Source: Ignavibacteriales bacterium (lineage in GTDB: Bacteria; Bacteroidota; Ignavibacteria; UBA10030). From it: 19,162 nucleotides of DNA. How positions within the stretch are numbered: the stretch's first letter is position 1; the number at the start of each line of letters is the position of its first letter. The notes under the pieces are model-generated. The model worked only from the letters and a program-made list of their open reading frames with translations, ran no database searches and had not been told where the DNA came from. The translations under genes were made by a program, and so were the position numbers. Location: positions 1-19,162 of the forward strand of contig JACRFF010000118.1 in NCBI GenBank assembly GCA_016218005.1, written 5' to 3'. Shown one piece after another: positions 8,835-11,479 of this stretch.

Positions 8835-8908
8835 GGCGGGGTAGCTCAGCCGGTTAGAGCGTCGGAATCATAATCCGCAGGTCGTGGGTTCGAATCCCTC
8901 CCCCGCTA
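8835..8908 (+). tRNA. tRNA with CAU anticodon (elongator Met, or Ile2 if lysidine-modified)
   Basis: A full cloverleaf can be folded. The acceptor is GGCGGGG/CCCCGCT with a terminal G-U. Then come TA at positions 8-9, a D-stem GCTC/GAGC, an anticodon loop ATCATAA with anticodon CAU, a five-base variable region AGGTC, and a T-arm GTGGG-TTCGAAT-CCCTC. The discriminator is A at 8908 and CCA is not encoded. It is not an initiator tRNA: there is no 1-72 C-A mismatch, and the three G-C pairs at the base of the anticodon stem are missing. Odd points are a U-C pairing at the top of the anticodon stem (27-43), a U-U in the T-stem (50-64) and G-U at 1-72. The last ten bases belong to a repeated unit found again at 11003. 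Met versus Ile2 cannot be settled by eye. Confidence 0.85.
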
Positions 8909-8914
8909 CAAAGT

Positions 8915-8939
8915 AAAAATCCCCCTTGTGGGGATTTTT
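8915..8939 (+). terminator. Rho-independent terminator after the tRNA
   Basis: A perfect 10-bp stem AAAAATCCCC / GGGGATTTTT surrounds the loop CTTGT, and the T-run is part of the stem's 3' arm and continues past GC. It starts 7 nt after the mature tRNA end, the expected place for the tRNA terminator. The A-run/T-run symmetry means it could work in both directions. Confidence 0.8.
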
Positions 8940-8976
8940 GCTTTGTTCGTAACAGGAAGGTCGAAACGAATCTTTA

Positions 8977-8997
8977 CCCCGCACGTTTTTTGCGGGG
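8977..8997. repeat. GC hairpin inside the 101-bp unit
   Basis: CCCCGCA (8977-8983) pairs with TGCGGGG (8991-8997) around a T-rich loop. The same hairpin is present in copy B at 11081-11101. It lies at the right end of the unit, just before the repeated tRNA tail. It may be structural for the element or a second terminator; no T-run follows it. Confidence 0.6.
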
Positions 8998-8999
8998 CC

Positions 9000-9013
9000 T
9001 CCCCCGCTACAAA
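9000..9013 (+). repeat. Second copy of the tRNA 3'-end sequence (att-like core)
   Basis: TCCCCCGCTACAAA here repeats 8899-8912 exactly. It directly precedes its own terminator, so it looks like the original tRNA tail displaced 101 bp by the inserted unit. Related copies are at 11003-11016 (exact) and 11104 onward (TCCCCCG then diverged). Confidence 0.7.
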
Positions 9014-9049
9014 CGGAACTCAGCATCGTGTTGGGTTCCGTTTTTGCTT
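9011..9049 (+). terminator. Rho-independent terminator, probably the ancestral tRNA terminator
   Basis: AAACGGAAC (9011-9019) pairs perfectly with GTTCCGTTT (9035-9043), and the 3' arm runs into TTTTTGCTTTTT. It abuts the second tRNA-tail copy. Its T-run lies on the plus strand, so it stops rightward transcription. Confidence 0.75.
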
Positions 9050-9054
9050 TTTCT

Positions 9055-9397
9055 AGCAGGTTTTCCACATCGTGAGGTACGGCGGGCAATGCGTTGACAT
9101 GGAACCTGATGACTTCCTCATCCCGGTCTACCACGATCCTTGATATGTATTTCCTATTAGAAGCTTGCGCTCCATCAAGTTGGCCCCAGCGAAGTACTCC
9201 TCAAAGTTGACGACAAAATCCTCCATCATTCTCCGAGCATTCTGAACGTCCACTTGTCGGGAAAACGCATTCGACTCAGACCATCCGAGGAAGTCGCTGA
9301 ATGTCGTTATCCGTTGAAGCTCTTGCTTGAACCTCTCGGCCGGGTTGTCTTTGGAAAGGGACAATACCTTTGCCTTTGATGTCGTCTTGGATTTCAT
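9055..9397 (-). pseudogene. C-terminal remnant of a probable large serine recombinase, frameshifted
   Basis: From an ATG at 9397 the frame reads 89 residues and stops at 9128. It contains a charged, coiled-coil-like stretch (RRMMEDFVVNFEEYFAGANL, then MERKLLI). Just before the stop the reading shifts. If one A is restored near 9154-9155, MERKLLI continues as RKYISRIVVDRDEEVIRFHV in the next frame and runs on to about 9055. That order (helical region, a LLI-R-x-x-x-R-I-V-V-D segment, then beta strands) is what I know from the C-terminal end of large serine recombinases. The N-terminal catalytic domain and zinc ribbon are missing; the ATPase gene lies where they would be. The alternative is a genuine 89-residue orphan protein, but the continuing homologous-looking frame argues against it. 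It suggests a lost mobile element at the tRNA. Confidence 0.55.
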
Positions 9398-9422
9398 GGC
9401 GTATTGAGTCCTCTTACGCCTT

Positions 9423-10568
9423 TTAATCCTCGAGAAACGATTTGAAGTTGACGGCGCTGATACCATCTCCCAGCGCGATCTCTTTTCCTCGATAGACTAC
9501 CCATGAGTGCTTTGCCTCGTGGGAAAGCTGCATGAGAAGTCTCGCCATTTCGGGACGGAATGTATGTCCAGATTTGATCTCAATATGTTCCCGACTTGAC
9601 TTCTGATCGATGATGAGATCGATTTCATTACCGTTGCTTTCCCTAAAGAAAAAGATTTCTGCATCTGTCCGCGTGTGTATCAACCTCTTGCGCGCCTCAG
9701 AAACCACATAGTTCTCGAAGAGTGCGCCGTACATCGGACCATTCTCAAACAACTGTTTGGTGCGAATCCCGGTCAGATAAGAAACGAGTCCTGTGTCGTA
9801 GAAATAGATCTTTGGACTCTTGATGATCCGTTTCCCCATGTTCTTATGAAATGGAAGCAAAAGGAAAACGACATAGGAAGCCTCTAACACCGAGATCCAT
9901 TTTTTGATCGTTGGCACACTGACACCCAGGTCGCGGGCGATTTCGGACATATTCAAAAGTTGAGCGACTCGAGCTGCAAGCATCTGTATGAATCGCCGGA
10001 AGTCTCTGATGTCTCCAATTTCGCTGATATCCCGCACATCACGCGTCAGGTATGTATCGAGATAGGAAGAATACCAATCGTAAGCACCGCGATATTTACG
10101 CCCGACAAGTTCGGGGTATCCACCCTGGTAGAGCGATTGGTCCCGGAGCCTTGTGGGTATCTCTGAAAACTGGAATGGTAACAACGTGAGAAGGCCGATT
10201 CGCCCTGCCAGACTTTCGGACACGCGTTTCATGAAAGCGAATTGACTCGATCCGGTCATGATGAACTTGCCATAGTTGTTCCTGTTGTTATCGACGATGA
10301 GTTTGACATAGTGAAAGATTTCAGGAACGCGCTGGACCTCATCAAATATGACCTTATCCGAGTAGACCTCCATGAATCGCTCGGGATCGGTATGAAACCG
10401 GTCGACCGCATTGAGGTCATCGAACGAGATATACCGGTACTTGGCACCAAGAAGCTTCCGAAGCATGGTGGACTTCCCGGACTGACGGGGTCCGGTCAAT
10501 CCGACGACCGGAAAGAGCTTCAGGTACTCTCGAACTGTTTTTTCGATTACACGAAGATAATAAGGCAT
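9423..10568 (-). CDS. AAA-family ATPase with DUF4143 C-terminal domain
   Basis: This 381-residue protein has a complete P-loop, G-P-R-Q-S-G-K-S (residues 26-33). Its Walker B is V-I-F-D-E-V-Q (Asp76, Glu77), and a sensor-like strand ends in M-T-G-S-S-Q (about 100-105). The region after about 190 carries a helix-turn-helix-like stretch (MSEIARDLGVSVPTIKKWI) and the C-terminal DUF4143 portion with YFYDTGL and an E-I-D-L-I...H-I-E-I-K-S-G nuclease-like core (about 315-335). Family knowledge: these ATPases are very common, patchily distributed, prone to transfer, and of unproven function, with a PD-(D/E)XK-like C-terminus. The gene appears intact. No ribosome site is visible before its ATG, but it has a strong promoter 32 bp upstream. 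It sits between the two copies of the 101-bp unit, probably as cargo or as a later arrival. Confidence 0.88.
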   Translation of the reverse strand: MPYYLRVIEKTVREYLKLFPVVGLTGPRQSGKSTMLRKLLGAKYRYISFDDLNAVDRFHTDPERFMEVYSDKVIFDEVQRVPEIFHYVKLIVDNNRNNYGKFIMTGSSQFAFMKRVSESLAGRIGLLTLLPFQFSEIPTRLRDQSLYQGGYPELVGRKYRGAYDWYSSYLDTYLTRDVRDISEIGDIRDFRRFIQMLAARVAQLLNMSEIARDLGVSVPTIKKWISVLEASYVVFLLLPFHKNMGKRIIKSPKIYFYDTGLVSYLTGIRTKQLFENGPMYGALFENYVVSEARKRLIHTRTDAEIFFFRESNGNEIDLIIDQKSSREHIEIKSGHTFRPEMARLLMQLSHEAKHSWVVYRGKEIALGDGISAVNFKSFLED

Positions 10569-10599
10569 AGTGTTTATGTAATATTAAGGCAACGGTTTA

Positions 10600-10628
10600 A
10601 ATATACATGATTCCGATTTTCCCGTCAA
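10600..10628 (-). promoter_or_regulatory. Strong sigma70-like promoter for the ATPase gene
   Basis: Read on the minus strand, TTGACG (10628-10623) and TATATT (10605-10600) are spaced exactly 17 bp. Each matches the consensus at five of six bases. Transcription would start about 25 nt before the ATG at 10568, giving a short leader without a visible Shine-Dalgarno. Confidence 0.6.
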
Positions 10629-10735
10629 CTTTAAATATTTCCATTATAGAAGGACTCGTCTTATTGCACGATTGAATCATGTTTTGCCAAATCTTTTTCC
10701 ACCCACCTCAAAAATATTGTTGTAAAATAAAGCAT

Positions 10736-10841
10736 CCCCGCAGCAAGCTGCGGGGTATTTCGTTGTCACTCCCGCGTACGCCGGAGTCCAGTCTCTGGAT
10801 TCCCACTTTCGTGGGAATGACGAAGCAAGCTTCGGGGTATT
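10736..10841. repeat. REP-type palindromic element flanked by repeated hairpins
   Basis: A 57-nt core at 10765-10821 has near-inverted ends GTCACTCCC / GGGAATGAC and three internal dyads: GCGTACGC, GAGTCCAG-tct-CTGGATTC and CCAC-tttc-GTGG. It can fold as a cloverleaf. It matches the widespread GTCATTCCCGCG... family of dispersed repeats. On each side lies an 18-bp direct repeat, AGCAAGCT-[G/T]-CGGGGTATT (10742-10759 and 10824-10841). Each of these is half of a perfect hairpin: CCCCGCAGC-AA-GCTGCGGGG at 10736-10755 and CGAAGC-AA-GCTTCG at 10821-10834. Confidence 0.75.
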
Positions 10842-11002
10842 GAACCCGAAAAGAAAATAAATCGTAACGGCAACTCAGATTGGCGACTCTCACGAACGCA
10901 AGACGTTGTCGCAGTTACGATTCTGTTACGGTTCCGGCTGAACTCAGCAGCGGAAACTGTGAAAACTCTCTCAAAGACTTTGATGATACCGTCTTGAGAG
11001 TT
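10842..11002. other. Non-coding stretch with two imperfect hairpins
   Basis: I see no gene here. TTCCGGCTG at 10932-10940 folds on CAGC-ag-CGGAA (to 10955) with a 2-nt bulge. AACTCTC...AAAGAC folds imperfectly on GTCTTGAGAGTT between about 10963 and 11003, immediately before copy B of the 101-bp unit. The second could be a terminator for rightward transcripts or simply a decayed palindrome. Confidence 0.4.
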
Positions 11003-11103
11003 TCCCCCGCTACAAAGTAAAAATCCCCCTTGTGGGGATTTTTGCTTTGTTCGTAACAGGAAGGTCGAAACGAATCTTTACCCCGCACGTTTTTTGCGGG
11101 GCA
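11003..11103 (+). repeat. 101-bp repeat unit, copy B (no tRNA attached)
   Basis: The sequence is the same as 8899-8999 except for the final base, offset 2,104 bp and in the same orientation. It begins with the tRNA-tail sequence TCCCCCGCTACAAA although no tRNA body precedes it. Directly after it (11104) comes TCCCCCG followed by diverged bases, a degraded copy of the same tail. It includes the same terminator-like hairpin (11019-11043). Confidence 0.9.
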
Positions 11104-11479
11104 TCCCCCGTTGCGCCAGCCCACCGAGTGGCGGACTTTGTCATTTTCTCCCTTGTCTCATTAGAAATGGCTATGAGTTACAGAAAGTGCCGTTCCTCAC
11201 TTGAAAAGAAGTCCACAACTGAGTACTATTCTCACAAGCACAGTAATCCGAAGCCGGGTTTATGCACTGCAGTGGCAAGTGGTCTGTACATCATATTCGA
11301 ATTCTCAGTCCGCGGTTTGGGGGCTTCCCCTTCCGGGGGTGAAACATAATTGCACTGAGAGGTCTGGACAAGCGTAACGTTTCCGCAGATGAAGTCGTTC
11401 AGACACCAAGGAGGTCTCTCTTGAGATCGGATGGCGGGGGGAATATCGAATTATCGGGAAGAACGGCAACGGGAAACCG
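11104..11479. other. Long non-coding leader before the secretion/pilus operon
   Basis: I find no convincing gene in these 376 bp. Visible features are a 10-bp palindrome CACTGCAGTG (11265-11274), a G/C-rich dyad near 11322-11340 (CCCC-ttcc-GGGG), and a strong Shine-Dalgarno AAGGAGG at 11408-11414. The operon promoter is probably here but no box pair is convincing. The last 50 bp appear to encode the N-terminus of the GspF-like protein, described with that gene. Confidence 0.45.
11408..11441 (+). promoter_or_regulatory. Ribosome site, candidate ATG and G6 tract upstream of the GspF-like gene
   Basis: AAGGAGG (11408-11414) is followed by TTG at 11421 (6-nt spacing) and ATG at 11431 (16-nt spacing), then a run of six G at 11436-11441. 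Neither start is in frame with the GspF-like gene as the sequence stands. With five G, the ATG reads M-A-G-E-Y-R-I-I-G-K straight into it. With four or seven G, the TTG would also connect. This decides how the protein begins. Confidence 0.5.

Follow-up and report, generated by a model that had tools for sequence, protein, structure and literature searches.

The window analysed here, a stretch of 19,162 bases that is one entire contig of the Ignavibacteriales genome G000 (1.72 Mb in 383 contigs, 81% complete), carries at its sole transfer RNA (tRNA) gene a unit of 101 bp that recurs almost unchanged past a segment of about 2 kb. The reading preferred here, to which a probability of about 0.55 is assigned, is that this unit is a small non-coding member, either a satellite or a deletion relic, of a group of elements residing at tRNA 3' ends, and that it flanks an older serine-recombinase island at both ends. 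The initial annotation had posed two models, an integrated island bounded by tRNA-derived attachment (att) sites and a small mobile unit that enters at the tRNA tail and regenerates it; each appears to be partly right, as a small tRNA-tail unit flanks an older, decayed island.

The tRNA gene, an elongator tRNA-Met (CAT), lies at 8835-8909 on the forward strand according to both ARAGORN, which identifies no other tRNA in the window, and Rfam (RF00005, 65.6 bits). Its 3' strand supplies the first copy of a 14-nt tail, TCCCCCGCTACAAA, and it is within this strand that copy 1 of the unit begins (8899-8999, forward strand). Copy 2 (11003-11103, forward strand), delimited by repeat search and alignment, has no adjoining tRNA, in agreement with the initial annotation, which had joined only the first copy to a tRNA. 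A repeat search of the window returns a single family, whose two copies (108 nt; 8899-9006 and 11003-11110) are 99% identical at a spacing of 2104, and the direct 101-bp repeat with 100 identical bases described earlier is thereby borne out, the sole mismatch being C at 8999 and A at 11103. The two sequences diverge past TCCCCCG, which is common to both. This heptamer occurs in the window at 8899, 9000, 11003 and 11104 only, that is, at all four edges of the units, with no occurrence on the opposite strand. The complete tail is exact at 8899, 9000 and 11003, and of the extra tails said to follow the units, the exact copy at 9000-9013 (forward strand) is present and forms the left edge of the island; the sequence at 11104-11117 agrees with the tail at 9 of 14 bases, and the TCCCCCG at 11104-11110 (forward strand; alignment) may be either a decayed tail or a tail-like target.

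Within copy 1 the tail is followed by a terminator-like hairpin (8908-8946, forward strand; inverted repeat I2, also seen in the fold) with an A-run on its 5' side and a T-run on its 3' side, then by a linker containing GTAACAGGAAG and a palindrome, CCCCGC...GCGGGG (8977-8997, forward strand; fold and alignment). In this succession of tail, hairpin, linker and palindrome, with another tail behind them, the window unit shares the layout of the tRNA-Met tail units of the order. The RNA fold of 8899-9013 is better than that of 200 of 200 shuffled sequences (z -4.15), and a further hairpin, followed by T-runs, lies behind the second tail at 9011-9043 (forward strand; inverted repeat I7). Two other descriptions of the unit were tried and set aside. 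Classification as a miniature inverted-repeat transposable element was rejected, as the unit ends have no inverted pair among the inverted repeats listed and the genome holds two copies, not many. A motif behind the hairpin, GTAACAGG, was matched at 8 of 136 tRNAs, from +31 to about +88, and 40 times in 126,322 bases elsewhere; four of the eight, with the forms GTAACAGG, GCAACAGG or GGATCAGG, belong to tRNA-Met, and the rest look like chance. A search by RNAalifold for a structure shared by 12 Met units gave 4 pairs and was uninformative.

A comparison of tRNA-Met loci with and without such units bears on how they arise. The 55 bases past the last tail at nine occupied Met loci were compared with the sequence lying directly 3' of the tRNA at 14 loci, chosen for showing no second tail in the sequence then available (700 bp at most), of which three were later found to be occupied otherwise, by the G025 element, the G013 island and a G038 GIY-YIG gene (by eye). 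At six of the nine occupied loci, the sequence past the displaced tail matches the direct 3' flank of the same tRNA elsewhere with scores of 44-54, where seven unit hairpins put through the same comparison reach best scores of 22-39; the shuffles behind this comparison keep base composition only, and terminators resemble each other. The matched pairs are G007, G029 and G016 with G052 and G010, G037 and G008 with G031, and G011 with G003 and G027, so that the six counted matches rest on G010, G052, G031, G003 and G027. The elongator locus of G010 (score 43) best matches the initiator locus of G010 itself and was not counted, the G028 locus scores at background (24), and the G002 locus, with 20 bases only, matches nothing. 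The pattern favours an insertion that regenerates the tRNA over a mere tandem duplication, because a new hairpin stands behind the tRNA while the old terminator stands past the displaced tail, and tandem duplication would not give these.

The slot between a tRNA and its displaced tail is also used by elements with genes. At the initiator tRNA-Met of G025, an element of about 3.4 kb encodes a tyrosine integrase (PF00589) and has exact 14-nt tails at both bounds, and past its far tail lies a terminator of the G029/G016 type (by eye). The other open reading frames (ORFs) of this element (L288, G025:C147:1-4100) resemble, by eye, a RelE/HigA-type pair and a PLD-type nuclease. Serine recombinases (PF07508) of G048 and G033 end at the same tRNA-Met tail, and a shorter ORF in G065 reads like them, with no Pfam match. 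At other tRNAs, elements of some 300-450 bp have a GIY-YIG nuclease as their sole gene. Across six genomes, 49 of 52 GIY-YIG hits were examined (three of UvrC length were excluded and three others of that length kept), and for 27 of the 49 regions a tRNA lies no more than 800 bp away, in every case on the same strand (binomial p ~2e-30 if genes were placed at random, assuming 45 tRNAs in 3.2 Mb). The tail of the preceding tRNA is repeated beyond the GIY-YIG ORF in nine of these 49 (four Ser, two Pro, and one each of Asp, Leu and Arg). Seven further loci (L218, L219, L220, L223, L228, L229 and L172) have the ORF in front of an intact tRNA-Ser, -Pro or -Arg, and in all seven it is preceded by collinear pieces of the tRNA 5' part, split by palindrome-like inserts. 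Beyond the order, a phylum sample of 30 GIY-YIG loci (one of which belongs to the order and is not among the following) includes eight that adjoin a tRNA, all on the same strand, and four of them have the tail again past the ORF. At the tRNA-Pro of G020, a 299-bp unit with a GIY-YIG ORF adjoins a 108-bp unit that retains only the end of the ORF, the palindrome and the tail.

Tail units also recur at other tRNAs. Elsewhere in the window's own genome, on a different contig, the initiator tRNA-Met has diverged units of similar layout behind it; their second tail has 1 mismatch in 12 and their third has 2. Over the order, a second tail (at most 2 mismatches of 12) was found at 9 of 24 readable initiator tRNA-Met loci, these being what remains of 32 matches when 30 loci were read and 6 with fewer than 100 bases downstream were excluded, and at 4 of 18 elongator loci. 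Among 136 tRNA genes of G000, G003, G020 and G037, 12 have their own 12-nt tail again behind them (five Met, two each of Gly, Glu and Asp, and one Pro) when up to 1 mismatch is allowed and 700 bp downstream are searched, one of 13 raw recurrences having been removed as a second tRNA-Thr gene; the corresponding controls give 1 of 136 upstream and 193 of 18280 pairings with tails from other tRNAs, and the rate is biased because the three relatives surveyed were chosen by DNA match to the unit. Of 11 contig records with the exact spaced pattern of the unit, two (L239 and L244) follow a tRNA-Met identified by ARAGORN, eight follow no tRNA, and L236 starts within an apparent tRNA 3' end. Some units form near-identical tandem arrays, as behind tRNA-Glu (142 bp), tRNA-Gly (139 bp) and tRNA-Leu (133 bp) in G003; the last of these (L011, G003:C4, near 131 kb, minus strand) consists of tandem units with a hairpin and palindromes. 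In L239 (982-1672), from a metagenome-assembled genome named 'Bacteroidetes bacterium', a tandem array of six units, four of them 106 bp and two 128 bp long, stands behind the initiator tRNA-Met and contains much of the tRNA body. At another locus (L095, G003:C14:65516-70190), a tRNA-Asp hairpin unit occurs three times around a tyrosine integrase gene (PF00589), the third copy being inverted and about 3 kb on.

The segment between the two unit copies of the window (G+C 0.474, compared with 0.53 in the flanks) looks like a worn remnant of an older inserted serine-recombinase island, judging by its coding content. No intact recombinase was found in the window, only a fragment on the minus strand at 9051-9155 that resembles the C-terminus of a large serine recombinase (tblastn to the G048 recombinase, 51% over 35 amino acids, E 2e-7 against the window alone) and has no Pfam match. 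An overlapping ORF of 112 amino acids (9128-9466, minus strand) belongs to no Pfam family and has only the window's own protein as homologue, although its C-terminal part, by eye, resembles the stretch that precedes the recombinase fragment, in another frame. Next comes an AAA_14/DUF4143 ATPase gene (9423-10568, minus strand; Pfam, relatives). DUF4143 genes alone say little, because they are common (26 of 61 genomes) and few lie near a tRNA (2 of 19 relatives' loci searched). The elongator tRNA-Met of G013, from another genus of the same family, is adjoined by a recombinase-like ORF and a DUF4143 gene (39% identical to that of the window), which are arranged and oriented as in the window. The G013 locus has neither a unit nor a second tail within 700 bp, and its recombinase-like ORF is related to those of G065 and G048 (E 2e-16 and 2e-8). 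The marks expected at the ends of a tRNA island are present in the form of an intact tRNA-Met at one end and an exact 14-nt tail at 11003, inside the second unit. The integrated island of the initial annotation is partly supported by this gene content and by the comparable unit-free pair of G013, and the use of the 101-bp units as attL/attR is not. The segment also contains a palindrome-rich repeat of 107 bp (10736-10842); a second copy, 99% identical, lies at G000:C106:11506-11612, and C101 has a match of 23 bases.

Several results weigh against the preferred reading. The initial annotation had held that many dispersed copies would support a mobile unit, and a search of G000 returns the 101-bp unit in just two copies, both in the window; the mobile-unit model does fit the relatives, in which like units lie between tail and old terminator at tRNA-Met genes, other genomes being without them. 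The exact spaced pattern is rare, at 2 of 98 genomes of the order, none of the 98 being of the same genus. A synteny search, based on the window's left-hand glycosyltransferase neighbour only, found tRNA-Met at 0 of 29 loci of relatives and so no unit-free allele of the window locus. The hairpin behind the second tail, which the initial annotation had taken, at 9011-9049, for the displaced old terminator, is indeed a hairpin, but no tRNA-Met terminator of relatives resembles it well (the best score, 29, is to the window's own unit), and that identification is not confirmed. The linker of the window unit has no significant likeness to a tRNA body (p 0.22), and only 3 of 15 units tested reach p<0.05 uncorrected (L239, G011 and G010), the G011 unit scoring higher with the other tRNA-Met; inspection by eye shows a clear T-arm sequence in G011 and a split tRNA in G014. 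As to an enzyme, no GIY-YIG domain was found among the six window proteins scanned, none of the four PF01541 hits of the genome is on the window contig (C12), and no tRNA lies within 800 bp of any of these hits. Further, the window fragment has no direct match, in either frame, to the G013 ORF, which itself has no recombinase match in Pfam, and the parallel therefore rests on the links to the G048 and G065 ORFs and on the common layout. No second tail occurs on the tRNA strand in 19.7 kb of G013, where the other strand has one weak match with 2 mismatches in 14 and another with 3, or in 19.8 kb of G033; for G048 the search was limited to the 2 kb left before the contig stops.

The preferred reading would operate as follows. 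An element of this group would enter a tRNA gene at or near its 3' end and leave the tRNA intact, providing a new terminator behind it and displacing the old 3' tail and the old terminator downstream. In the window, an older serine-recombinase island, now reduced to a recombinase-like fragment and a DUF4143 gene, would have come to lie between two copies of the tail. The presence of the unit on both sides could reflect its copying to a second TCCCCCG site or, alternatively, two older copies kept alike by gene conversion. Because the decayed island stands between near-identical units, the arrangement suggests that the unit was copied, or its copies were homogenised, when decay of the island was already under way. 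Candidates for the enzyme are a GIY-YIG nuclease and, alternatively, a recombinase that acts in trans. That the unit is or was mobile, which enzyme served it and in what order the events fell are thus inferred from the comparisons above.

An unlikely alternative is that the two 101-bp units are simply the attL and attR of the 2-kb island, the att site comprising tail and unit, such that a single integration produced both and recombination between them would delete the island. This would be in keeping with the direct orientation of the repeats, the intact tRNA at one end, the recombinase-like fragment that adjoins the left edge, the lower G+C of the island and the serine recombinases and tyrosine integrase element at tRNA-Met tails of relatives (G048, G033 and G025). 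However, the ends of the G025 element repeat the 14-nt tail and not a 100-bp unit, G013 has a comparable gene pair without a unit, units occur without an island at other tRNA-Met loci, and the missing second tails of G013 and G033 tell against this alternative as well. By analogy with G025, the 14-nt tails found at 9000 and 11003 would be at least as good candidates for att sites as the 101-bp units.

It is similarly improbable that the unit is a plain duplicate of a tRNA 3' end and its terminator, which slippage during replication or an unequal crossing-over produced and which decayed afterwards, with nothing mobile involved. In Escherichia coli, the tyrT gene is followed by a simple tandem array whose repeat unit includes the tRNA 3' end. 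In the window, too, a unit that includes a tRNA 3' end follows an intact tRNA, and the near-identical arrays of G003 and L239, together with the tRNA body sequence in the L239 unit, are what such duplication would yield. Unlike tyrT, however, the window has its second copy 2 kb off, past an island, which duplication leaves unexplained, and the old terminators of relatives are displaced. Duplication also predicts the same terminator behind both tails, whereas at six of nine loci the old one is past the last tail and a different hairpin is behind the tRNA, and it does not account for GIY-YIG genes and an integrase element at the same position. Least credible by far is an assembly artefact in which one copy was misplaced or the contig joined at the repeat, as the copies differ at one base, their flanks differ and G013 has a comparable recombinase-DUF4143 pair at the same tRNA, even though the window is an entire contig of a 383-contig assembly and a 108-bp repeat with one mismatch in so fragmented a genome may be a place where short-read assembly errs.

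Known systems share some of these features with the preferred reading, in which a tRNA-tail unit flanks an older island. The islands catalogued by Islander are described as splitting a tRNA gene and restoring it, with the regenerated gene and the displaced fragment marking the two ends (PMC4383910). The window similarly has an intact tRNA and displaced tail copies, but its unit, at 101 bp, is geneless, repeats behind many tRNAs and stands on both sides of an older island. SegB, a free-standing GIY-YIG homing endonuclease of phages, is reported to be widely found beside tRNAs and to drive segmental amplification (PMC13096335). Here too GIY-YIG genes adjoin tRNA genes with duplication around them; however, the present cases are in bacterial chromosomes, the GIY-YIG genes lie between tRNA pieces, and the window is without a nuclease. 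A palindrome downstream of Methanopyrus tRNAs, as outlined in PMC5217627, is unrelated to the window unit. Literature searches of open PubMed Central, judged by title and the opening of the abstract, listed no paper on GIY-YIG genes that lie inside split copies of tRNAs in bacterial chromosomes.

A broader proposal, offered tentatively and with chances judged somewhat short of even, is that bacteria harbour a class of minimal tRNA-gene homing elements. Each would consist of a lone small GIY-YIG gene flanked by tRNA pieces, whose nuclease cuts tRNA genes such that element and chromosome together rebuild a complete tRNA, the tail type being inserted behind the tRNA and the head type ahead of it. 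Like the window unit, satellites of about 100 bp would keep the tail and the terminator and have lost the nuclease. A caution follows for annotation, in that repeats of tRNA ends would not necessarily mark the ends of islands. If the proposal is true, the tRNA genes of the group studied here would host integrase islands, one-gene elements of a few hundred bases and still smaller satellites. How insertion restores an essential tRNA each time, and why palindromes sit in the displaced tRNA pieces, would become testable, and the answers may bear on the minimum size of a mobile element.

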